From Magnetovibrio sp. (GTDB taxonomy: Bacteria > Pseudomonadota > Alphaproteobacteria > Rhodospirillales > Casp-alpha2): a stretch of DNA of 64,000 bases. Shown in pieces: positions 21,850-62,241 of the stretch (position 1 is the stretch's first letter; each line of letters begins with the position of its first letter). A model generated the notes under the pieces. The model worked only from the letters and a program-made list of their open reading frames with translations. It had not been told where the DNA came from and ran no database searches. The position numbers were made by a program, and so were the translations under genes. The DNA is taken from the NCBI GenBank assembly GCA_002690705.1, contig NZFO01000019.1:8141-72140 (forward strand), written 5' to 3'.

Positions 21850-22647
21850 TTAATTAGCGCCTAGGTTATCGGGGTTGGTGCCTCTTGTTTCGGCTATCAA
21901 ACAACTCAGATTTTGAAATGTAAGGCTCTCAAGAAATTTTTGTAAGTCAACTTTTTCTTTTTTTGATAAATTTAGGGGATGTATTCTTTCATCTTGTAAT
22001 CGATGTTTGCCGCCACCTCGGTCATAAAAATCTATAACCTCCTCTAGCGACGACAATCCCCCGTCGTGCATATACGGCGATGTGATAGCTATGTTTCGCA
22101 ATGAGCTTGTTCTAAACCTCCCTCGGTCTGCAGGTTTTTCAGTCACTTCGTACCGGCTTAAATCTGCTTCTAAAGGTAAACCGACGGACGAAATAATTTT
22201 TTGATCAATTTCCAATGTTAAATCTGATGTTACAGTAATCTTAGAAATGGCGGGTGGTGTCTGACGTAAGTTTTCTCTCATCCAGCCATATCCGATATCA
22301 TGAAATTTATTATCTGAAAAAAAAGCGGAATCAGGCCCGATGGTGTGGCATGATACGCAATCACCTTTATTTAAAAAAATTTTAAAACCACTTCTTTCGG
22401 ATGGACCCAGAGCGGTTTGATCTTCTCCATAGTACCATTGGTCAAACGGTGAGTTACTTGCAACCAAGGAACGTTGATATGATGCTCGGGCCCTACCAAC
22501 GTTATCGAATGTTGCTTCTGCTTTAAAAGCGTCGAAGAATAGTCTCTGATATTCAGGTAAGTCGCGTAATAGCGTAATGACTATTCCTACGGAAGGATTA
22601 GACATTTCATTGCGTGCAGTAAGAGGGCCGATCAGGTATTTTTGCAT
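21850..22647 (-). pseudogene. MauG/di-heme cytochrome c peroxidase, N-terminally truncated
   Basis: 265 residues cover only the second half of the family. A heme-binding CVSCH is at about residue 116, with later conserved blocks RTSSLRNIAITSPYMHDG (distal Met) and SLEEVIDFYDRGGG. The N-terminal domain with the first CxxCH and any signal peptide is missing, and the upstream 140 bp shows no in-frame remnant. Without the high-potential heme and export signal it is unlikely to work as a peroxidase, so I treat it as a remnant. It lies downstream of senA on the same strand. Confidence 0.65.
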
Positions 22648-22792: not shown

Positions 22793-24097
22793 TTAACTTT
22801 TACATAAGCGGAAGCCACTGAATATGTCCCAACGCTCAGGCTCAAAATAGTTGCGGTAAGTGCCGTGAAGCATTCGGCTTCGAGTTGTCCAAGCCCCGCC
22901 ACGCAGAACTTTTGTTTTGCCAAACAGGGACTGCGAGTACTCCTGATAAGAATCCGCTTTAAATGCTGGGTAGGGGCCAAAAGTGTCAGAGCACCACTCC
23001 CAAACATTACCTAGCATTTGTCGGCAACCGAATGCACTGTCGCCAGCAGCGAAAGCGGCAACGTCGACCGGGCCCATAGAAAAGCCATCTAAATTTGCAT
23101 GGTTGCCCTCATTCATACTATCGCCCCATGGATAGCGGCGCTTATTGGGCGATAGACTGCCGTTTGTTGTTGGGATCCCCAAGGCGGCAACTTCCCATTC
23201 CGCTTCGCTTGGCAAGCGAGCTTCAGCCCATAAAGCATAGGCATTGGCCTCATACCAGCTGATATGGATGACTGGCTCGTTATCAGCAAGTGGTATAATT
23301 TTATCGAATTGTCGCACTTCCCAGCCATAAAAATTATTTTTGCGCCAATAGCCCGGATGCATAAGACGTCGTTGATCTCGCCAGTGAATGCCGCGCGTAG
23401 TCCAAAAACGGTTGTCCTGATACCCACCAGAGTCCACAAAGTCTGCGAACTCAGCATTTGTGACAGGGGCCTTAGCAATCGAAAAAGGTTGAATATCAAC
23501 AAAGTGATTACCTCTTTCATTATCGAATGAGAACGGCGCGTCTTTGGATGCTCCTATCTCAAAATAACCGCCTTTAATATTAACATAGCCTGGATGCGCC
23601 CCGGGATAGCCGACGCTTGCTCGCCCAATTGAACTTTTTAAATTTGGCGTTGGATAGCTGAGAGTTTGGCGGGTCCAAAAAAAAGCTTCCGTGTGCATAT
23701 CTTCGTGGAATACGCCAAATTGCGCCATAAAGTAAGCTTTTTCATCCAAGTGTTCCTGCTCAATTGCTCCAATTACTGCTTCTTTAGTCTCCGCCATGTA
23801 TCGAAGTGTGGCGTCCATTCCAAGCAGTGGTAAGTCCCAGCGGTCAGAGTGACTTATGGCTATAGAGTCATAGATCTGATCTGCGAGATCACCTAGTAAA
23901 CTATCTCTCTTTAAATGTGCCCGCAGGACAAAAAATTCGTAGAAATAGGCTACATGACCAATTTCCCAGCGAAGTGGGTTGACAGTATTAAGCTTGGGAC
24001 CGATCAATTGATCATCGTTTAAATCGCGAATAAGTTCGAGCGTACGAATGCGCGCATCACGAATCATCGATACCAGCCATAAAGTATTTGTTTGCAT
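22793..24097 (-). CDS. senA: Selenoneine synthase SenA (EgtB-like, DinB + FGE-sulfatase)
   Basis: About 434 residues. The N-terminal DinB-like domain carries an iron-binding His triad: one in WEIGHVAYFYE and two in HEDMHTE, with spacings 83 and 4 that equal those of EgtB. A formylglycine-generating-enzyme-like domain (about 170-430) ends with GNVWEWCSDTFGPYP and FSGFRLCK. EgtB makes ergothioneine; here the divergent senB-like gene and SelD-type gene argue for SenA, which joins a selenosugar to hercynine. ATG 24097 is chosen; a GTG at 24103 is possible. No egtD (hercynine synthesis) lies nearby. EgtB function cannot be excluded. Confidence 0.8.
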   Translation of the reverse strand: MQTNTLWLVSMIRDARIRTLELIRDLNDDQLIGPKLNTVNPLRWEIGHVAYFYEFFVLRAHLKRDSLLGDLADQIYDSIAISHSDRWDLPLLGMDATLRYMAETKEAVIGAIEQEHLDEKAYFMAQFGVFHEDMHTEAFFWTRQTLSYPTPNLKSSIGRASVGYPGAHPGYVNIKGGYFEIGASKDAPFSFDNERGNHFVDIQPFSIAKAPVTNAEFADFVDSGGYQDNRFWTTRGIHWRDQRRLMHPGYWRKNNFYGWEVRQFDKIIPLADNEPVIHISWYEANAYALWAEARLPSEAEWEVAALGIPTTNGSLSPNKRRYPWGDSMNEGNHANLDGFSMGPVDVAAFAAGDSAFGCRQMLGNVWEWCSDTFGPYPAFKADSYQEYSQSLFGKTKVLRGGAWTTRSRMLHGTYRNYFEPERWDIFSGFRLCKS

Positions 24098-24136
24098 ACT
24101 CACGTTTCTCTTTTAACACTCAAGGGTCACCATAAT

Positions 24137-25105
24137 TTGAAAATTACTCTGATTACGCCAGCAAATAAATACTCGAAGAGTGGAAACAGGACCACGGCGG
24201 TAAGGTGGGGTCGTATGTTGCGTTCTCAAGGGCATTCAGTTTCAATTGCTGAAATCTATGATGGAACTGACTGCGACTTGATGATAGCCATCCATGCGTG
24301 GCGAAGCGCCCTTTCTATTGCAGCGTATCGAGACAAATTTCCTCTAGGTCCATTAGTTGTGGCGCTGAGTGGGACTGACGTGAACACTTTTTTAAAAACC
24401 GAACCCCAAAAAACACTGCATGCCATGCGTGTTGCGGATACCCTGATCTGTTTGCACAGCTTGATCAAAGACGAATTGCCCTCAGACCTTCAATGTAAAT
24501 TACATTTAGTGTATCAGTCTGCCCGGCCTTTACTAATCCCACGTAAACCGCGAACGCAAACATTTGGTGTTTCTGTCATCGGACATCTTCGTGAAGAGAA
24601 AGATCCATTTCGTGCTGCATTGGCCGCGCGGCTAATGCCGGCTGAGTCTCGTCTTCGCGTCTATCATTTTGGCAAAGCGCATACGGATAAATGGGCGCGC
24701 CAAGCAAAGCGTGAAGCTGCAAATCAAGCGCGTTATGTGTGGAAGGGTGAAGTTTCTGCTTGGCAGGTCCGGCGTGAATTGGCTAGGACTCATGTAATGG
24801 TAATCAGTTCTAACCAAGAAGGTGGTGCAAATATTGTATCCGAGTCGATTGCCGCGGGCGTGCCAATCATTGCTTCGTCCATTCCCGGGAATGTGGGCTT
24901 ATTAGGGAGGAATTATCCCGGTTATTATCCGGTTCGAGACGAGCGAGCACTAGCTGATATTTTTTGGCTTGCCGAAGACGACCCAACATTTTTGCCAAAA
25001 TTGCTTCATCACGTTGACAAGTTACGTCCAAAATTTTCTCCTGCAGGTGAGGCAAGAGCTCTGGCAGGGGTAATAGAACATGCTACAAAAGCACCTACCA
25101 AGTGA
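24137..25105 (+). CDS. senB: Selenosugar synthase SenB (TIGR04348-type glycosyltransferase)
   Basis: A GT4-like glycosyltransferase of about 323 residues. Marks include NRTTAVRWGRMLRSQGHSV, LIAIHAWRSA-type text and VVALSGTDVNTFL, characteristic of the SenB family. SenB couples selenophosphate with a UDP-sugar to form a selenosugar. A TTG start at 24137 is preferred because AAGGG precedes it and the downstream sequence begins LKITLITPAN; an upstream ATG at 24092 would overlap senA. It is divergent from senA and converges with selD, with an 11-bp overlap at the 3' end. The function rests on family resemblance and context. Confidence 0.82.
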   Translation: MKITLITPANKYSKSGNRTTAVRWGRMLRSQGHSVSIAEIYDGTDCDLMIAIHAWRSALSIAAYRDKFPLGPLVVALSGTDVNTFLKTEPQKTLHAMRVADTLICLHSLIKDELPSDLQCKLHLVYQSARPLLIPRKPRTQTFGVSVIGHLREEKDPFRAALAARLMPAESRLRVYHFGKAHTDKWARQAKREAANQARYVWKGEVSAWQVRRELARTHVMVISSNQEGGANIVSESIAAGVPIIASSIPGNVGLLGRNYPGYYPVRDERALADIFWLAEDDPTFLPKLLHHVDKLRPKFSPAGEARALAGVIEHATKAPTK

Positions 25106-27374
25106 GAGTAACCGGTTCAAGGTGTTCGGTCTTATCCATGACTGACCCGATAATCGCGGCACGGAAATAGCCGAGTCGGTGGAGTTCTCTCAAGCAAGCT
25201 TCTGACTGGTCGGATGAGAGTGCTACCAGCAAACCCCCTGACGTTTGCGGGTCAAATATTAATGGGTATCGCTCGTTTTCTGCAGCGATTTTCATGTTCC
25301 GGATAGCGCGGCGGAGTCGCACATTAGCTGGCTGTAACGAGCTTACAATGCCTGCCCGGAGAGTTTCTAGTGCGCCATCCATTATAGGCAATGTGTTTAA
25401 GTCGATGCTTATATCAACGCCTGAAGTGTCTTCAGAGCTCTTGATCATTTCAATCATGTGGCCGAGAAGTCCAAATCCAGTTATGTCAGTGCATGCTTTT
25501 GCACCATACCGGTACACGCATTTTGCTGCCTCATAATTTGATAAAATCATAGATTCTAAGGCCGCATCGATCCACCGACCTCTGGCTTTCTTTTGCATGT
25601 CAGCGGCAAACAGCGTACCTGTGCCAAGTGGCTTTGTAAGCAACAAAACATCACCGGGCTTCATGCCGCTTTTACGCAAAATATCTTTACGTTCCGCCAA
25701 TCCATTTATTGAAAATCCTAATGCCAGTTCTGCTCCCTCGCTCGTATGACCGCCGACGAGCGTTGCCCCCGCCTGATTAAGGACTTCTATGGCACCAATC
25801 ATCATTTGCTTGACTGTGTCCTCTACTTTAGCCTCTACCCCATAGGGCACTGTAGCGATGGCGAGCGCAGTTTGTGCTTCACCACCCATAGCGAATATGT
25901 CGCTGAGTGAATGATTGGCAGCGATTTTACCAAAGATATAAGGATCGTCGATAAATGAACGGAAGTAGTCTACAGTATGCAGCATCACTTTACCCTGGGG
26001 GACCTCGACCACCGCAGCATCGTCAGGCTCATGTAGTCCAACAAGAACATCTTTTCGGGACACTGGGGACAATTCCTGCAGTGCTCGCGAGAGAACATTC
26101 GCACCAACCTTCGCACCACAGCCCCCGCAACGCATGGCAATTGCGGAAATCTCTTTCAGAGTTTCTTGGTTTGTGAGACCTCTATCATAGCTAGCTTTTT
26201 CTTCATTAACCATTACAGGTAAAGAAGTATATTTCCCCATCCAGCGCCGATCTATCCAATCCTTCCACCTCCAAATTAATTTGCCTTCCACCACGATACC
26301 GGCGCGGGCAGCAATGGCGTATTTGTCACCCGTACTAATGAGCGCCAGCGCAGATTTTTGCGGTTTGAAAGACCGCAAGGGACGGCCGAGCAGCGCACGG
26401 CGCAGGTTATCCGCCAGTGGCTTTCCTTGGCGTACCGCGAATACTCCGGCCTTTTCACGCGGATATTTGAGTACGTTAGCAACGTCACCCGCTGCAAATA
26501 TATGCTCATGCGACGTAGAACAAAGACTATCGTGAACTGTTATAAAACCTCGATTATCCACATCTAAACCGGACATGCGAAGCCAATCAGGGGCACTGGC
26601 ACCAGTCACCAGCAATACGTCATCCAACTCAAGTTGTTTACCATTGGATAACGTCAAACAGCCTTTTTTGACGGTGCTCGCTTCGACCCCCACATGAACT
26701 TGCACACCACGTGAAAATAATACGCGTTCAAAACGGTTGGCAATAGCTGTTGAGAACGACGGAAGAATGCGTTTAGAGCGGCTGACCAAGTGGAAATCTA
26801 TCTTGTCGCTATCACGACCAGCAGCATTTAACAGATTCTGGAGGTGGAACTGTATTGCTAGTAATATTTCAACCCCAGCTGCCCCGGCGCCCACCACGCC
26901 GATGCGATATTTACCTGATTGCGCCATGACGCGTTCACTTAAGTGATGCCACTTATCAACAAAACGGTTAATCGGCTTGACTGGCGTTGCGAATAGATCA
27001 GCGCCTATGACCCCTTTTAACTCTGGTTTTGAGCCGATATTGACCGACAAAATATCGTATGGCACGGCCGGTCGACTTGCACATAAAACAGTTTTTTTCG
27101 TCGGATCGATCTTAATCGCCTCATCGTGGAATAACCGGGCCCCAGCAAACTGACACAATGGACGAAGATCGACGTGCGAGGCATCGAAGTCATAATGACC
27201 GGCAACATAGCCGGGGAGCATGCCCGAATATGGCGTATGTATATCCCGTGCAATTAGTGTTAAGCGCACTCCGGGCTGCGGGTTCATGCCGAAATTTTTT
27301 AAAACTGCGACATGAGTATGTCCCCCGCCAATAAGCACCAAATCTTTTAGAATCATGTTTGCGTTCGATTTCAT
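25095..27374 (-). CDS. selD: NADH dehydrogenase-like/selenide, water dikinase fusion (SelD; SenC role)
   Basis: 759 residues in two parts. Residues 10-390 are a pyridine nucleotide-disulfide oxidoreductase (FAD motif IGGGHTHVAV; NAD motif VGAGAAGVEI at 161-170; FAAGDVAN near 293-300). Residues 405-755 are selenophosphate synthetase, with the catalytic Cys region CGGCGAKVG (C416/C419), GPDDAAVV-like text (HEPDDAAVV) and VGGHTSEGAEL. No Sec is encoded. SelD makes selenophosphate from selenide and ATP. The reductase may reduce selenium compounds for it. It can feed both senB and mnmH next door. The fusion is known in other bacteria. Confidence 0.93.
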   Translation of the reverse strand: MKSNANMILKDLVLIGGGHTHVAVLKNFGMNPQPGVRLTLIARDIHTPYSGMLPGYVAGHYDFDASHVDLRPLCQFAGARLFHDEAIKIDPTKKTVLCASRPAVPYDILSVNIGSKPELKGVIGADLFATPVKPINRFVDKWHHLSERVMAQSGKYRIGVVGAGAAGVEILLAIQFHLQNLLNAAGRDSDKIDFHLVSRSKRILPSFSTAIANRFERVLFSRGVQVHVGVEASTVKKGCLTLSNGKQLELDDVLLVTGASAPDWLRMSGLDVDNRGFITVHDSLCSTSHEHIFAAGDVANVLKYPREKAGVFAVRQGKPLADNLRRALLGRPLRSFKPQKSALALISTGDKYAIAARAGIVVEGKLIWRWKDWIDRRWMGKYTSLPVMVNEEKASYDRGLTNQETLKEISAIAMRCGGCGAKVGANVLSRALQELSPVSRKDVLVGLHEPDDAAVVEVPQGKVMLHTVDYFRSFIDDPYIFGKIAANHSLSDIFAMGGEAQTALAIATVPYGVEAKVEDTVKQMMIGAIEVLNQAGATLVGGHTSEGAELALGFSINGLAERKDILRKSGMKPGDVLLLTKPLGTGTLFAADMQKKARGRWIDAALESMILSNYEAAKCVYRYGAKACTDITGFGLLGHMIEMIKSSEDTSGVDISIDLNTLPIMDGALETLRAGIVSSLQPANVRLRRAIRNMKIAAENERYPLIFDPQTSGGLLVALSSDQSEACLRELHRLGYFRAAIIGSVMDKTEHLEPVTLTW

Positions 27375-27806
27375 ATAGTGAGTTTCCGTGTATTTTTAAG
27401 TTGGTGTTACGAATATCAAAAATAGGCGCCTAGCTGCACGCATTTATGAGGCCGTTCTTTTGATGAAAAACACTCATGTTGCAACATTAAAAGCCTCAAG
27501 ATCCAAGTTTCGGGTATGATAATTTCTCGTTTAAAAGATAACCATGTGGAAGATAGCCCATTTTTACGCGGTAATATTTCGTAGGTAGGTGGCATGATAT
27601 AGCTCATGTGACCCGGCTGCAGCAACACGTGGTGGGCAAAACGAATCATCAGGTGTAATCTTGCCCCACAATTGTGCAGTAAAAGGTCGACAAACTTTGG
27701 CAGCATAGATGGCCCATCAAATTACGAAAAAAAGGGAGCCCAACAAAACTCGGGGTTTGAGTGGAATACGATTAGTTCGCGATGCATATCGAATTAAGAC
27801 TTTAGT
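27375..27806. promoter_or_regulatory. Divergent region between selD and mnmH
   Basis: 432 bp that must hold both promoters. A minus-strand frame of 96 codons (27416-27706) lacks a plausible RBS or recognisable content, so I do not call it a gene. No operator or riboswitch-like fold is evident. Confidence 0.4.
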
Positions 27807-28949
27807 TTGGGAATTTATGAGCAATCATGGAACAATGATTTGACCGCGAGGGAAACGAAATTGATAAATAACATGATCACCGGAACTGAAATGTGGGATC
27901 CAAAGCATTATGACATGGTCATTGATGTCCGTGCGCCCGGAGAGTTTGCTCATGATCATATCCCGGGTGCTGTAAATCTGCCGGTGTTGTCTGATGAAGA
28001 ACGTTCCATTGTGGGCCGTTTGTACACGCAGGACTCGCCTTTCGTAGCCCGAAAACACGGTGCAGCTCTTGTAGCCCGAAATATTGCTGGGCATATCGAG
28101 GGAGTTTTGAGCGAAATGCCCAGCAATTTTAGTCCTCTGATCCATTGCTGGCGGGGAGGACAACGCTCGCAGTCCTTCGCGCAAATTTGTAGCGCTATCG
28201 GATGGCGAAGTTTTGTGCTTAAAGGTGGTTATAAATTTTACCGTCGAGAGGTGCGATCATATCTGGATCGCATACCCTCGACACTTAAATTGATTATCAT
28301 CGCCGGACGCACCGGCTCGGGCAAAACAGATATATTAAAGGCACTCTCTGAGAAAGGCGCGCAGGTTCTTGACCTAGAGGGGCTTGCATCGCATCGCGGG
28401 TCGCTATTAGGGCGTGTTAAAAATGTCGCGCAGCCGAGCCAACGCATGTTCGAAACCTTGTTGCATTCGCAGCTACAACGGTTTCATCCAGATCAGCCAG
28501 TGTATATAGAATCGGAGAGTTCCCGGATTGGCGACGTTCAGGTGCCAGCAGAGCTTTGGAAGCGGATTTTGGTCTCCCCGCAGATACCAATTTCCACGCC
28601 TCGCTCTGCTCGCGCGGAATATTTGCTCGGGGAATACTCTCATCTTACACGGGAGATTGATGATTTGAACACTTTAGTAGCGGGCATGACACGACGACAC
28701 GGAAGTGAACGAACTAACCACTGGCAGTCATTGATAGATACTCGTGCATGGAGCGCGTTGGCCTATGAGCTATTGAAAGCTCACTACGACCCAGCATATG
28801 ATAACACTCTTCAGCGTCATAAACGACCCATACTTGGTGAAATCATGCAAAAAGACTGCAGTAATGCCTCCCTTGAAAGTTCAGTAGAAGCCATTTTGAA
28901 AATGCAAAGCCTTGGCCTGAAGGTCAGTGCAATTCAGAGATCGGGCTGA
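27807..28949 (+). CDS. mnmH: tRNA 2-selenouridine synthase
   Basis: About 380 residues from a TTG start; the true start could be up to 20 codons further in. Rhodanese domain first, with active Cys C114 in IHCWRGGQRS. A P-loop GRTGSGKT (167-174) introduces the ATPase-like second domain. MnmH (SelU) turns 2-thiouridine at the wobble position of some tRNAs into 2-selenouridine using selenophosphate and geranylation. Its divergent position next to selD fits. Together with senA/senB it shows that selenium goes to tRNA and a small molecule; no selA or selB is in the window. Confidence 0.92.
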   Translation: MGIYEQSWNNDLTARETKLINNMITGTEMWDPKHYDMVIDVRAPGEFAHDHIPGAVNLPVLSDEERSIVGRLYTQDSPFVARKHGAALVARNIAGHIEGVLSEMPSNFSPLIHCWRGGQRSQSFAQICSAIGWRSFVLKGGYKFYRREVRSYLDRIPSTLKLIIIAGRTGSGKTDILKALSEKGAQVLDLEGLASHRGSLLGRVKNVAQPSQRMFETLLHSQLQRFHPDQPVYIESESSRIGDVQVPAELWKRILVSPQIPISTPRSARAEYLLGEYSHLTREIDDLNTLVAGMTRRHGSERTNHWQSLIDTRAWSALAYELLKAHYDPAYDNTLQRHKRPILGEIMQKDCSNASLESSVEAILKMQSLGLKVSAIQRSG

Positions 28950-29287
28950 CGGGGATGCTGCCGTGAGTTTAGAATAATTTGGTACCGGGCATGATTTCAT
29001 TCTTAAACGTTGAAGCAAGCACGACAGTGACGGCTAAAAATCATGTAAAGACAGTTCAGGCAAGGACTTTTGACACTGTATCTAACAGCCTAAAAACAGT
29101 GTCTATGAGAATTATTTTAGGTAAAACTGATCTTATTCGTCACACTTGCCCTGAGATGCGATTAAGAGCATTCTTACTGTGGATTTTACGCTCTTCTCCC
29201 ATAGCCTTTTCCAAAAAAAATTAAGGGAAAGCGGATCTGAGAGCGTCAAAATAACCGCTAAACAACATAATATAAATGGAGAGAACC
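28950..29287. other. Gap between mnmH and the ABC transporter
   Basis: 338 bp, AT-rich. It should carry the promoter of the downstream binding-protein gene, whose RBS GGAGAG is at 29278-29283. No terminator hairpin with a T-run is clear after mnmH, and no gene is supported. Confidence 0.4.
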
Positions 29288-30259
29288 ATGACAATTGTGA
29301 GAAAAATAGGAGCATTAGCTGCAGCTAGCGCGATCTTCTTAATGGCCTCATCGGCCGTCTATGCCGCCGATAAGTTAAATGCCGCGTTTTTTCTAGAATG
29401 GGCGACGCCAAACCAAATAGCGAAAGTTGAAAAGACTTATGACAAGGCGTTGGGGGTCCCTGTGACGTGGACGGATTTTAAAACCGGCGTAGCCATGACT
29501 GAAGCAATGTTATCCGGTGATATAGACATCTCGTATTCTCAAGGCTTGGCGCCCTTTGTAACGGCTATTCAGCAAGGTGCCCCTCTGAAAATGGTTGGAA
29601 TCGCTGTAGTTTATGAAGCTAATGATTGCTTTGTAAAAAATGGTCTCGGGATAGATGCGTCGAATGCATCCGAATTGGAGGGTAAAACCGTTGCGGTACC
29701 TTTGAATACGATGGCCGACTATGCATTCCGACGCTACATGACAACGCTACAAGTTGATATTAGTAAGTTGAAGATTGTCGATCAAGCTCCGGCTGACGGC
29801 GCGCAATCGCTCGCTGACGGGCTTGTGCAAATGGCGTGTATATTCGGTGGTTCATCCTCCAAGGCAGCCAGAGAAGTGGGGACGCCGATCATGAATAAAC
29901 AACAAAAAATTAGGGCGGGTATTGGCTCTTTTGATGTTATTTCAGTTACGGAAAAATTTGCTACTGAAAACCCAGAATTAGTGCGTGCGTTCTTGGAGGT
30001 CACAGAAGAAGCTAATCAAGCTTGGACGGCCTCTGATGTGCAGGTGGCAAAAGTCGCAGCGGATGCTGGTATGAAATTAGATACTACAAAGGCTCAAATG
30101 GCAGATTTCATTTTTCCTACGGCTAAAGAGCAACTTGAACAGTACTTCGGCAAAGGTGGGCTTGCTGCCTCTGCTGCGGCTTCGTTGGGCATGGTATTCT
30201 CAGGTGATTCTGATGGATCTAAGATTGCTAAAACTATAGATGGCTCGTTTCTCAAATAA
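29288..30259 (+). CDS. Taurine/sulfonate-type ABC substrate-binding protein
   Basis: About 323 residues with a Sec signal peptide ending in VYAAD near residue 27. It belongs to the TauA/SsuA/NMT1-like group, with TPNQIAKVEKTYDKALGVPV and the hinge text ALSGDIDISYSQGLAPFV-like (EAMLSGDIDISYSQG). The ATG at 29288 follows GGAGAG; a slightly earlier ATG is possible. It heads the operon with the ATPase and permease genes. The ligand is likely a taurine-like or other small sulfonate, though this superfamily also binds nitrate, bicarbonate and thiamine precursors. Confidence 0.85.
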   Translation: MTIVRKIGALAAASAIFLMASSAVYAADKLNAAFFLEWATPNQIAKVEKTYDKALGVPVTWTDFKTGVAMTEAMLSGDIDISYSQGLAPFVTAIQQGAPLKMVGIAVVYEANDCFVKNGLGIDASNASELEGKTVAVPLNTMADYAFRRYMTTLQVDISKLKIVDQAPADGAQSLADGLVQMACIFGGSSSKAAREVGTPIMNKQQKIRAGIGSFDVISVTEKFATENPELVRAFLEVTEEANQAWTASDVQVAKVAADAGMKLDTTKAQMADFIFPTAKEQLEQYFGKGGLAASAAASLGMVFSGDSDGSKIAKTIDGSFLK

Positions 30260-30282
30260 CGGATGCTAGGGTTATCGAGGGG

Positions 30283-30303
30283 GAGACTGCGAACTGCAGT
30301 CTC
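30283..30303 (+). terminator. Hairpin between binding-protein and ATPase genes
   Basis: GAGACTGC (30283-30290) and GCAGTCTC (30296-30303) form a perfect 8-bp stem with a 5-nt loop, followed by TCTTGTT. It starts 23 bp after the binding-protein stop. It probably terminates or protects part of the transcripts, giving excess receptor over membrane parts. Confidence 0.6.
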
Positions 30304-30464
30304 TCTTGTTGATCAGACATGCCCTTGTTTTAATTAATTGCCGCAAACTTGAAACTTTAGGCCATCCATATGCCTAGCTGTGCGGGCGCGGCTGCTTATA
30401 AGGCATTTAAGAGAGCATATTTTACTCATAGCATGTTCACTGCCTAACTAGGATCATAACTATA

Positions 30465-31262
30465 ATGACTGACCTTGTTTGCGAAGACTTGAGCATGACT
30501 TTTGTCAATCCATCGACCGGTTTCGAGGTTGAAGCCCTAAAAGATATAAATTTTACATTAAAAAAGGGTGAGTTGTTGACCGTGCTTGGTCCCTCGGGGT
30601 GCGGAAAAACGACACTTTTAAATATGATCGCAGGTTTTTTGAGACCTACCTCAGGAAAAGCATCTTTGGGAGGCAGGATGATTGATGCCCCCGGGGTAGA
30701 GCGCGGGATGGTTTTCCAACAAGGGGCACTTTTTGAATGGTTAACTGTCTCGAAAAATGTTGATTTTGGACTGCGGATGAAGAAAGCTGATCCCGAGAAA
30801 ATCAAGAAACTTGTTGAAAAATGGCTCGATATCGTGGGCTTACAAGGCTTTGGTGATACTCCGACCTATCAATTGTCAGGCGGCATGCAGCAGCGGGTTG
30901 CGTTGGCACGGTGTTTGGTCAACGATCCATCAGTTATTTTAATGGATGAACCGCTTGGTGCTCTGGACGCACTGACACGCGAGAAAATGCAGTCTTTAAT
31001 TCTTACGCTTTGGAAAGAGACGGGAAAGACAATACTTTTTATCACACACTCAGTGGAGGAGGCTCTCTTGCTGGGTGAGCGTCTTTTTGTTATGGCGCCC
31101 CGACCGGGCCGTATTTATAAAGAATATCATTTACCTTTTGCCGAGCGAGGCCTCTCGGAATCACTTCGCGATATAAAGCAAGATGTGGTTTTCACCGAGG
31201 TCAGGGAAGAAATCCTGACCATGATTTGGGACATGGAAGAGGAGATCATGGGTCGTGGTTGA
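30465..31262 (+). CDS. ABC transporter ATPase (TauB/SsuB-like)
   Basis: 265 residues. Walker A GPSGCGKTT (about residues 44-52), signature LSGGMQQRVALARCLV and Walker B VILMDEPLGALDA are all intact, followed by the His switch FITHSVEEA. The sequence class matches nitrate/sulfonate/taurine importers. It overlaps the permease gene by 8 bp, so they are translationally coupled. It supplies ATP hydrolysis for the importer on the cytoplasmic face. Confidence 0.93.
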   Translation: MTDLVCEDLSMTFVNPSTGFEVEALKDINFTLKKGELLTVLGPSGCGKTTLLNMIAGFLRPTSGKASLGGRMIDAPGVERGMVFQQGALFEWLTVSKNVDFGLRMKKADPEKIKKLVEKWLDIVGLQGFGDTPTYQLSGGMQQRVALARCLVNDPSVILMDEPLGALDALTREKMQSLILTLWKETGKTILFITHSVEEALLLGERLFVMAPRPGRIYKEYHLPFAERGLSESLRDIKQDVVFTEVREEILTMIWDMEEEIMGRG

Positions 31263-33183
31263 CTGGTTTTCAGACAACCGCGGATTGGTAGCCGCTTTAA
31301 TGATTTTTTCCCTTGTGGTCCTGTTTATGTGGGCTCTATTTGTTGGTTGGAGAGACACGGTACTAACTTCTAAGAATCAAGTGTTCGGCGATCCACAGAG
31401 GACTAGTGGAGGCTGGTACTGGACTATATGTGGTGCGTCAACCTTGATGCTAGTTTGGTTTTATTTTTCGTGGGGTATAGGCCGGGCTTACATGCCCAGC
31501 GCGGCTAACGATATGTGCCAGGTGGCCAAGCTTGACGAGGCCCTGTCCCCGATCAAGGCTGCGCTCCCCGGGGGCGCGCGTTATTATAAATCGACTTTAC
31601 TGGTAGCACGCAATACCGCTCAACTAAACTCCATCCAAAAAGAGCTTCTTTCTAGCGCATTCTCGCAAGCTGAGCAGAAATTGCTAAACGAGTTGATCGA
31701 AAAAATAAGAAGCTTAATGGTTATTTCGTCTAACCCGAAAAACCTTAGCGTGGAAACTATCGAGAAAATTGACAAGTTAGTTCTTAAGCTCGATGCGGTG
31801 AGTGCGGAACTGCTATCAGGCACGCAGGGCTTGACCCCTACCGCCATAGCATTGGCTCAGCCCAAGTGGGGTACCACGCATGTTGAAATTCCAATTGCAC
31901 CAATTACTCCACTCGGCATTTTATTCGATAAGGGATCCGTTCTGGCCTCAAAAGCCGCAAGCTTATTCCAAACAATAAAAAACCACGCCCCTGCAAGTAA
32001 AGTGGTTATTGAAGAGTTAAAGTCTGATATTACCGTTCTGAAGAATGCGAATGAGATTGGAGAGTTCAACGGGGGCATAAAAGCTCAACGCGTCGCTTAT
32101 GTAAAATCTTTGGAAAGAATTTTTAGACGGTTGGATGATGGGACTATTTTTCCAGCAAATTCCCTTGAGGGCATCAATGCCGCGATTGCCCGGTTAGATG
32201 GTGCGCGAGAGATCGCACAGGGAAATTTTCAATTGATGCAAGCTCTTTTCTTCCCCGGGCCGGGTGTAGTCAAGTCGCGCACACAATGCAGTGAGCAAGG
32301 CTCGGCGAGATGGCTGCCGAAACCAACGGACGTCATCGCAACTTTCTTGAAATTAGCAAATCCCGATATCAACTCTGGGGGTGGATACAAAGGCGTTCCT
32401 TTATTATGGTGGGAATGGAAGCCAATCGCAGGGTTTGTTGGTTTTTTTGTGCCGAACTGGATTGCGGACTTTTGGCCAGGGGATTATGCCCGTCATCGCG
32501 TGGACGGTTCGATTGAACTTAATTTAAAAGACAAAATACTTCAATTCGCGACTGGAAAAATCCATTTGGGCTCAGTCCCCGCCCTTCATGGCCACCTATG
32601 GGACTCGGTGTTCCGGGTGTTAGTAGCGATGATACTCGGTGTTGTTCTCGGCGTGCCCCTAGGATTGTTTATGGGTGTTTCGCGGTTTTTTAAGTCGTTT
32701 TTTGATCCCTTAATAGAGATCTATCGGCCGGTACCTCCGCTAGCCTGGGCACCACTAATCCTCACGATTTTCGGTATAACCGATGATGGAAAAGTTTTTC
32801 TCCTATTCATGGTTGCTTTTGCCATAATGGTAATCTCGGCTCGGACGGGAGCATCTGGAACCCAGTTGTCCAAGATCCGCGCGTCCCACTCCCTCGGCGC
32901 TTCAGATCGGCAGATAATGTGGAATGTCATTTTCCCTAATGCTTTGCCGGAGATACTCACGGGTATTCGTATCGCGATAGGCGTTTGTTGGGGAACTCTT
33001 GTTGCAGCTGAGATTTTAGCAGGAACAACGGGTGTTGGATTTATTGAGAATATTGCTCGGACAGTATCTGATTACGAATTAATTTGGGTAACAATTTTAA
33101 TTATGGGGATTTTAGGTTTGCTTTTTGATGTATTTATGCGGCTCTTGATTAAAAGAACAATTCCATGGCGTGGACAAGGCTAA
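31255..33183 (+). CDS. ABC permease (TauC/SsuC-like) with a large N-terminal extension
   Basis: 642 residues, over twice the usual 250-280. The permease domain lies near residues 455-640, with the EAA loop ASHSLGASDRQIMWNVIFPNALP-type signature around 545. Ahead of it are two membrane segments (about 9-31 and 54-76) and a roughly 350-residue, mostly hydrophilic region with helical, coiled-coil-like stretches around 110-190 and 250-330. That region is probably periplasmic. It starts with GTG inside the ATPase gene (overlap 8 bp). I do not recognise the extension; it may help capture or gate substrate. Confidence 0.85.
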   Translation: MVDWFSDNRGLVAALMIFSLVVLFMWALFVGWRDTVLTSKNQVFGDPQRTSGGWYWTICGASTLMLVWFYFSWGIGRAYMPSAANDMCQVAKLDEALSPIKAALPGGARYYKSTLLVARNTAQLNSIQKELLSSAFSQAEQKLLNELIEKIRSLMVISSNPKNLSVETIEKIDKLVLKLDAVSAELLSGTQGLTPTAIALAQPKWGTTHVEIPIAPITPLGILFDKGSVLASKAASLFQTIKNHAPASKVVIEELKSDITVLKNANEIGEFNGGIKAQRVAYVKSLERIFRRLDDGTIFPANSLEGINAAIARLDGAREIAQGNFQLMQALFFPGPGVVKSRTQCSEQGSARWLPKPTDVIATFLKLANPDINSGGGYKGVPLLWWEWKPIAGFVGFFVPNWIADFWPGDYARHRVDGSIELNLKDKILQFATGKIHLGSVPALHGHLWDSVFRVLVAMILGVVLGVPLGLFMGVSRFFKSFFDPLIEIYRPVPPLAWAPLILTIFGITDDGKVFLLFMVAFAIMVISARTGASGTQLSKIRASHSLGASDRQIMWNVIFPNALPEILTGIRIAIGVCWGTLVAAEILAGTTGVGFIENIARTVSDYELIWVTILIMGILGLLFDVFMRLLIKRTIPWRGQG

Positions 33184-33292
33184 TACTTTTCTGAGGTGCC
33201 TCGTGGCCACTGGGTATACGGTAATATTACTCTGGTGGTAAATAGGATTCAGTATATCAAAGTGAACACTTCTCTTATTCGCTAGGCGCCAA

Positions 33293-34120
33293 TTAAGCAG
33301 GGATTTCGCCCCTCGACGTGCACCGATGTAACTTGCGCGGCATTTCCTCAGTATAATCTCGTACTGCATAATGCATTGAACGACGATTATCCCACACCAA
33401 GACGTCGCCAATACACCATTGATGACGGTAGATATTTTCTGGTTTGGTCGCGATGTGGTACAAGTGGTTTAGCATCCAAGTTCCCTCCTCTACCGTCATG
33501 TCCTCCACTCCAATTGTGAAGTGCGGATTCACAAAAAGTGCTCTCTGATTTGTACCTTTTGGATTACGCACGATGGGGTGCGCTCGAGGGGGCTTGATCT
33601 CAGATGAGTCAATTAACCTCGCATCAGAGTTACCTCCTATGCTTCGCTTGAAGGTTGCGATTCCACTATGGAGTGCCTTTTGGTCCCGTAACATCTCGCG
33701 CATACAGTCGGAGAGACTCTCATAAGCGCGTACCATGCTACATATCATGGTGTCACCATAGCCTTGAGGGACAGTAAGTGCGTGAAGGGTCGTTGCTGAC
33801 GGTGGTTGGTCAGCATGAGAAATATCAGAGTGCCAATAATTATTTGGTGCTCCCGGACGCCCCGGTTTGTTCTCGAGAATTAAAACTTCAGGAACATCTT
33901 GGACACTCGCACGAGTTTTAAGAGGGTGGGCATAAACAGGACCAAAAATCTCAGAGAAAATTCGATGGTTATCGGGGGTTAGATTTTGATCGCGGAATAC
34001 CAAAACGATATGTTCATTGTATAAGTCCAGCAAATCAGACTTTGCCAGACTGGTAATATTATTGAGGTCTAAATTACAAACCTCGATGCCTAATGCGCCA
34101 TTAATGGCTTTGATTTTCAC
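33293..34120 (-). CDS. TauD/TfdA-family Fe(II)/2-oxoglutarate dioxygenase (copy 1)
   Basis: 275 residues from a GTG start. The iron site is H97-x-D99 in NYWHSDISH plus a distal His in RRSMHYAVRDY, and the Arg that binds 2-oxoglutarate follows near the C-terminus. Oxygenates a substrate and often releases sulfite from taurine or related sulfonates; other members attack carnitine-like, phosphonate or herbicide substrates. It converges with the sulfonate-type ABC operon 110 bp away, consistent with shared use of the cargo. Substrate is inferred only from this context. Confidence 0.85.
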   Translation of the reverse strand: MKIKAINGALGIEVCNLDLNNITSLAKSDLLDLYNEHIVLVFRDQNLTPDNHRIFSEIFGPVYAHPLKTRASVQDVPEVLILENKPGRPGAPNNYWHSDISHADQPPSATTLHALTVPQGYGDTMICSMVRAYESLSDCMREMLRDQKALHSGIATFKRSIGGNSDARLIDSSEIKPPRAHPIVRNPKGTNQRALFVNPHFTIGVEDMTVEEGTWMLNHLYHIATKPENIYRHQWCIGDVLVWDNRRSMHYAVRDYTEEMPRKLHRCTSRGEIPA

Positions 34121-62154: not shown

Positions 62155-62241
62155 GCCCCTCTGGCGGAATTGGTAGACGCGCTGGATTCAAAATCCAGTT
62201 CCTTTACAGGAGTGCCGGTTCGATTCCGGCGGGGGGCACCA
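62155..62241 (+). tRNA. tRNA-Leu (CAA anticodon)
   Basis: 87 nt with a 7-bp acceptor stem (GCCCCTC with GGGGGGC, one G-T pair), a long variable arm typical of leucine tRNA, and the T-arm GCCGG-TTCGATT-CCGGC. The anticodon stem CTGGA/TCCAG encloses the loop TTCAAAA, giving anticodon CAA for TTG codons. The 3' CCA is encoded (62239-62241). Confidence 0.97.

Follow-up and report, generated by a model that had tools for sequence, protein, structure and literature searches.

The window analyzed here is a stretch of 64,000 nucleotides from Magnetovibrio sp. It belongs to contig C16 in a genome assembly of 3.03 Mb, 96.5% complete, so that absences from the genome are not absolute. Positions 22793 to 28949 hold four genes of selenium metabolism, senA, senB, a fused Ndh-selD gene and mnmH, named and placed as the original prediction had them (Table 1). 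All four products score above the curated NCBIfam cut-offs by which gene identities were assigned, with domains taken from Pfam. The genes alternate between the two strands and do not form a single simple operon. Comparison with relatives makes the TTG at 24137, rather than 24092, the most likely start of senB, which leaves 33 bases between it and the GTG of senA, and the 3' ends of senB and of the selD fusion overlap by 11 bases. For mnmH, the ATG at 27873, where the MnmH of the related locus L092 begins to align, is the likely start, and depending on the start chosen the distance from selD to mnmH is 432–498 bp. No known structured RNA was found near the cluster with Rfam at the gathering threshold, the whole window containing one tRNA (62155–62238), and promoter and terminator scans performed no better than on shuffled sequence (10 versus 10.4 and 3 versus 7.6, respectively).

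Table 1. Features of the selenium gene cluster, in window coordinates.
Feature	Coordinates	Strand	Description	Evidence or remarks
senA	22793..24103	-	DinB_2 and FGE-sulfatase domains, selenoneine synthase type; 436 aa from GTG 24103; alternative ATG 24097	NF041186, Pfam, tree, residues
senB	24137..25105	+	Selenosugar synthase (Se-glycosyltransferase); likely start TTG 24137	TIGR04348; PDB match 8fbx; conserved residues
Ndh-SelD fusion (SenC/SelD role)	25095..27374	-	N-terminal pyridine nucleotide-disulphide oxidoreductase domain plus selenide, water dikinase	TIGR03169, TIGR00476, C419/K422, CGGC
Decayed permease-gene remnant	27467..27784	-	Putative selenate ABC transporter (about residues 336–434 of 491)	tblastn; in-frame stop, frame change
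mnmH (selU/ybbB)	27807..28949	+	tRNA 2-selenouridine synthase; likely start ATG 27873	NF008752, TIGR03167

The SenB product scores 363 bits against TIGR04348 (cut-off 300), and its best match in the PDB is the SenB structure 8fbx (E=2.2e-44). Its residues N18, T21, K156 and E229 are the counterparts of N20, T23, K158 and E231, which are named for Variovorax paradoxus SenB in PMC10891094; N18, K156 and E229 are invariant across 20 SenBs. In the fusion, the N-terminal domain reaches 477 bits against TIGR03169 (cut-off 310) and the SelD part 302 bits against TIGR00476 (cut-off 125), while the score of 488 against TIGR04369, 'fusion_not_SelD', does not reach the cut-off of 700. C419 and K422 align with positions 17 and 20 of E. 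coli SelD, and the SelD active site carries the CxxC motif CGGC. The reductase domain, which the original prediction had treated as a peculiarity of this locus, is no such thing: Ndh-SelD fusions with CxxC were reported in 2008 in PLoS Genet (PMC2398784), and in 2015 Ndh-SelD was called by far the commonest SelD fusion (PMC4561486). The MnmH product, with a rhodanese domain in Pfam and a near full-length match to NF008752, scores 434 bits against that model (cut-off 266) and 349 bits against TIGR03167 (cut-off 220).

Comparisons were based on an order-level sample of 297 genomes, of which 46, the window's genome included, encode a SenB over the cut-off; such a SenB is absent from G253 and G268, the other two sampled genomes of the window's genus. 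The loci compared are the best 80 of 575 confirmed, ranked by likeness to the window SenB and in many cases on short contigs, and the neighborhood set comprises 128 sequences, reduced to 99 after merging loci where one SenB contained another. In fifteen of the SenB-bearing genomes the SelD reading frame contains a single TGA, presumably for selenocysteine, as at loci L065, L076, L080 and L081; four of these genomes (G108, G081, G040 and G056) have the TGA-bearing selD downstream of senA, at a distance of about 1.5 kb or less.

The genome-wide gene content bears on the supply of hercynine and on the source of selenophosphate. The original prediction was right that neither egtD nor selA lies in the window, and it had left open whether hercynine is made elsewhere or taken up. 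The full-genome search that it proposed yielded a lone egtD match on contig C3 (365 bits, cut-off 291), with no EgtB-like open reading frame (ORF) beside it. At E <= 1e-60 the EgtB model matches only senA in the genome; of the three FGE-sulfatase matches one is senA, and the other two ORFs, of 286 and 349 aa, are shorter than EgtB. SenA is the sole hercynine user found in the genome, and with an egtD on contig C3 and no EgtB found to compete, hercynine can be made at home. selA has no match in the genome at E <= 0.001, and 19 matches to the tRNA-Sec model were not accepted as tRNA-Sec, all lying below the gathering score (best 44.7 versus 47), though one so close under it could still be genuine. 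One SelD exceeds the cut-off, namely the fusion, beside three weaker matches of 24–48 bits, and there is a single MnmH match. SenB and MnmH are the sole selenophosphate users found, selB and selenium-cofactor genes not having been searched. One selenophosphate source should therefore serve both a small molecule and a tRNA modification, as had been proposed.

The same associations can be followed among the 46 SenB-bearing genomes. EgtD is over its cut-off in 41 of them and below it in two more, a count made in SenB-bearing genomes only, and is matched in all 21 of those of good quality; in 14/82 loci egtD follows senA at a distance of no more than 600 bp. EgtB exceeds its cut-off in 7/46, compared with 80/297 of the whole sample. 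SelA, MnmH and SelD are over their cut-offs in 22, 18 and 42 of the 46, respectively.

Based on these data, the locus is likely to be a selenium-use island, in which selenoneine genes, an Ndh-SelD and mnmH are the remnant of a larger island. This reading rests on the gene identities and copy numbers, on an EgtD without a recognizable EgtB, on the lack of a SelA match, on the transporter remnant and on the conserved layout described below. By analogy with characterized homologues, the Ndh-SelD fusion would make selenophosphate, from which SenB would transfer selenium to a uridine diphosphate (UDP)-sugar. The lone EgtD elsewhere in the genome would make hercynine from histidine, and SenA would couple the selenosugar to hercynine, with selenoneine formed after elimination and reduction. 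MnmH would spend the same selenophosphate in converting 2-thiouridine to 2-selenouridine in tRNA. We infer that the two branches share one pool, and because one small molecule and one tRNA base are the sole uses of selenium found in the genome, with one SelD, such sharing should be directly testable.

The alternative that fares best concerns mnmH, which may be a chance neighbor, functionally unconnected with the sen genes. The gene is on its own strand and at some distance from selD, its present adjacency apparently arose by a deletion (see below), and 14 of the 18 genomes with both MnmH and SenB do not have the two linked within 10 kb, though their contigs are often short. Still, mnmH lies no more than 10 kb from senB in 4/18 (G000, the window's genome, and G201, G153 and G139), against an expectation of 0.11 (P ~7e-6); leaving out the window, 3/17 are linked (P ~2e-4), these chance figures taking no account of contig breaks or of a linkage perhaps inherited in common by G000 and G201. 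Locus L234 (G265) was scored as unlinked, though it lies on a 4.9-kb contig and its mnmH is nearly identical to the linked one of L092. The linkage takes different forms: in L092 mnmH is divergent from a transporter, in L066 it directly follows senA, in L098 it comes after senA-egtD and, in a further arrangement, it is convergent with senA in L101 and L109. Two MnmH subtypes are involved, that of L098 differing from that of L066, L092 and L101. Linkage, mapped on the MnmH tree, requires four changes of state, at least three of them demanded by well-supported branches, which would mean that it was gained more than once, lost more than once or both; linked and unlinked genes do not form significant clusters there (60 of 500 shuffles are as low). 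Taken together, these comparisons make a chance association unlikely. That mnmH is found within 10 kb of senB above expectation is new, and no title on sen genes beside mnmH was among those listed for the literature searched, which is weak evidence of novelty given that most subscription papers fell outside it.

The adjacency to which the original prediction drew attention is thus real and recurs, but the closeness of selD and mnmH in the window looks secondary and tied to a lost transporter. L092 has senA, senB and the SelD fusion, then genes for a permease, an ATPase and a binding protein, with mnmH last. The L092 binding protein scores 383 bits against TIGR04553, 'putative selenate ABC transporter substrate-binding protein' (cut-off 250), and the binding proteins of L066, L155 and L170 also exceed this cut-off. 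In 19 of the 35 loci with enough sequence, a homologue (at least 45% identity) is encoded upstream of the fusion, on the same strand and no more than 4.5 kb away, and the window is among the 16 without one. A piece of the permease nevertheless remains in the interval between selD and mnmH, where tblastn aligns residues 336–434 of the L092 protein (42% identity over 99 aa, E=6e-20) in two frames and across an in-frame stop. On the simplest reading, the ancestral island would have had a three-gene putative selenate ATP-binding cassette (ABC) transporter upstream of selD, and the window lineage apparently lost it by a deletion that left mnmH beside selD, the direction of the change being our interpretation. 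This suggests that the window is a reduced remnant of a larger selenium island, so that the strongest biology, namely selenophosphate sharing and the inversion of senB, lies in its relatives.

More generally, a putative selenate ABC transporter is associated with selD and senB in these relatives; according to a 2022 review, no high-affinity selenium transport system has been identified (PMC9312934). SenB, Ndh-SelD and the putative selenate transporter are also present at L129, L144, L153, L157 and L170, where no SenA- or OvsA-like gene (E <= 1e-12) was found within 17–21 kb. At these five loci senB is preceded by an amidohydrolase, then by a molybdenum hydroxylase large subunit and an AllG-like protein, and the proteins preceding senB at the first four are 68–92% identical to those of L170. 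Such loci may use the selenosugar in another way. Some SenA-bearing loci also have distant molybdenum hydroxylases (28–31%) near senA, and L163, which also lacks SenA, has other neighbors.

The identity of the SenA-type enzyme bears on which product the locus would make. The protein scores 452 bits against NF041186 (cut-off 420) and 329 bits against the EgtB model TIGR03440, below the cut-off of 360. It contains H50, H133 and H137, which we take to be the iron ligands of SenA. A tree of 54 rows was built from the window sequence, two PDB chains and 51 of 179 extracted sequences (147 plus 32). It separates EgtB from the SenB-linked enzymes with support of 99/97 and places the window on the SenB-linked side, outside EgtB, which settles in favor of the original prediction its question whether this SenA falls inside EgtB. 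The seleno side comprises Variovorax-type SenAs, among which L221, a row labelled EgtB, sits on a long branch; a four-row OvsA clade (100/100), from which the window SenA is excluded; and a mainly alphaproteobacterial group with weak support (81/54) that includes the window, whose nearest rows are L092 (73% identity), L093 and L066. In columns that part EgtB from SenB-linked enzymes, the window SenA has the non-EgtB state in 16 of 17, the window itself being among the 39 seleno rows used to pick them.

Within the seleno side, the enzyme might instead act like OvsA and make selenohistidine, in the ovoselenol pathway, from histidine, rather than selenoneine. Several findings weigh against the selenoneine-based island at this point. 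In the PDB search OvsA is the best match of the window SenA (294 bits), ahead of EgtB (262) and Variovorax SenA (191). NF041186 fails to separate SenA from OvsA, in that the OvsA of Vreelandella utahensis also passes it (422 versus 420), and its score alone is therefore no proof of SenA. The window SenA belongs to a lineage separate from both characterized ones, Variovorax SenA and OvsA. A grouping of the alphaproteobacterial SenAs with Variovorax SenA or with OvsA is rejected in neither case by the approximately unbiased test (P of 0.51 and 0.70), and the tree constrained to the grouping with OvsA, the best-scoring of those compared, lies 10.3 log units above the free tree (0.7 for the grouping with Variovorax SenA); the free tree pairs Variovorax SenA with OvsA at 64/53 only. 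Among 29 columns that separate Variovorax-type SenA from OvsA, the window agrees with SenA in 10, with OvsA in 6 and with neither in 13. As to the mnmH half of the island, MnmH over the cut-off is lacking in 28/46 SenB-bearing genomes.

Three lines of evidence nevertheless render an OvsA-like activity improbable. First, the window has Y, N and Y at positions 389, 418 and 419, versus M, Q and A in the four OvsA rows. Variovorax-type SenAs have Y, N and F or Y there, and among the alphaproteobacterial rows Y389 is found in 27/27 and N418 in 26/27, the exception being L202 with an unrelated end. PDB chains 8ux5 and 8u41 differ at the positions matching these three, and the genomic V. utahensis OvsA has the letters of 8u41; 8ux5 looks like a designed variant, and from these differences the positions have probably been studied as determinants. 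It is important to note that Y389 and N418 also occur in EgtBs, a further point on the unfavorable side, and thus speak against OvsA only, not for SenA over EgtB. Second, the substrate of OvsA is histidine, whereas EgtD accompanies SenB in most genomes and lies near senA in some loci, as given above. Third, the OvsA pathway requires a methyltransferase, and none is among the window neighbors scanned with Pfam. OvsA was therefore rejected as the best name on the basis of the three residues and the co-occurrence with EgtD, despite the PDB ranking.

A role as an EgtB-like sulfur enzyme, with ergothioneine as the product and an incidental senB/selD neighborhood, is highly improbable: EgtB is the parent family, as the TIGR03440 score recalls, and the EgtB chain 4x8b (M. 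thermoresistibile-type) outscores Variovorax SenA in the PDB search, but 73 of the 80 EgtB-bearing genomes of the order score at least 472 on TIGR03440 against 314–352 for enzymes beside senB (244 for one cut by a contig end), and senA is divergent from senB at no more than 400 bp in 87 of the 95 loci with enough sequence. On these scores and the tree split, EgtB was rejected as a name for the window enzyme. Two further observations concern these families. L202, on the Methylorubrum populi plasmid pMPOP01, has senA and senB on a small plasmid, with senA abutting an IS6-family transposase gene and encoding a SenA whose C-terminal end is unlike that of other SenAs. L172, L173, L174 and L178, from genus g2 of the window's family, have an EgtB of about 735–745 aa, of which some 300 residues fall outside the EgtB model.

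The layout of the preferred selenoneine-type island is itself conserved. The 8 loci of the 95 without a divergent senA are two of V. utahensis, with OvsA on the senB strand, and six without a SenA-like gene. Between the starts of senA and senB the median gap, as extrapolated from where tblastn alignments end, is 33 bp, and it is no more than 60 bp in 86 of the 89 loci measured. At the other end of senB, a convergent selD is found within 1.5 kb in 50/83 loci, counting SelDs of at least 45% identity, and the ends of senB and selD overlap in 39 of the 58 measured. Because there is almost no spacer between the genes, at least one promoter is likely to lie inside a neighboring gene, with overlapping messages.

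This anatomy recalls the noncontiguous operon described for menE-menC-MW1733-ytkD of Staphylococcus aureus, with an opposite-strand gene lodged within the unit (PMC7154746). Here too, in anatomy only, senB lies on the opposite strand between the genes of a unit. A tentative model, possible though doubtful, is that one long message would carry the transporter, Ndh-SelD and senA, joined in some relatives by egtD and mnmH, with senB antisense inside it. Antisense pairing or polymerase collision would then couple SenB to the rest of the pathway, so that the cell may choose between selenoneine and tRNA selenouridine. The window would have lost the transporter portion of this unit. The conserved inverted senB with its overlapping ends makes this a testable regulatory idea.

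The genes flanking the cluster are of other kinds. Just downstream of senA, on the minus strand (21850–22647), is a MauG/di-heme peroxidase-like ORF, perhaps a gene remnant, that aligns with positions 77–148 of the 149 of CCP_MauG only. Beyond mnmH (29276–34120) are taurine-type ABC transporter genes and a TauD-like dioxygenase, the permease protein being 642 aa in length, with a long N-terminal region that the permease domain does not cover.

Among known systems, the locus resembles the senA-senB-senC cluster of V. paradoxus in combining SenB, a SenA-type enzyme and a selenophosphate synthetase, and the head-to-head arrangement of senA and senB is also seen in the Variovorax-type loci L203, L204, L205, L208, L209 and L210. 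It differs from that cluster in its Ndh-fused SelD, its other SenA lineage, the adjoining mnmH and the transporter remnant. With the OvsA locus of V. utahensis it shares SenB and the Ndh-SelD fusion, and V. utahensis (L155 and L156) carries a putative selenate ABC transporter, the L155 binding protein scoring 404 bits against TIGR04553. Unlike in the window, OvsA there is encoded on the senB strand; it is 37% identical to the window SenA and has M, Q and A at the three sites. The fusion resembles the Ndh-SelD proteins of PMC2398784 in its N-terminal NADH-dehydrogenase-like domain and in a SelD active site that contains CxxC. The noncontiguous operon of S. aureus likewise has a gene turned against its neighbors, a likeness of gene layout, but in the window this gene is of the same pathway as the genes around it. 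Compared with the MnmH/SelU/YbbB subtype NF008752, the window MnmH has the same rhodanese domain and a near full-length match, and only its place in the genome differs. From its gene content, the locus appears to be of the selenoneine type, its kind being known and its arrangement new.

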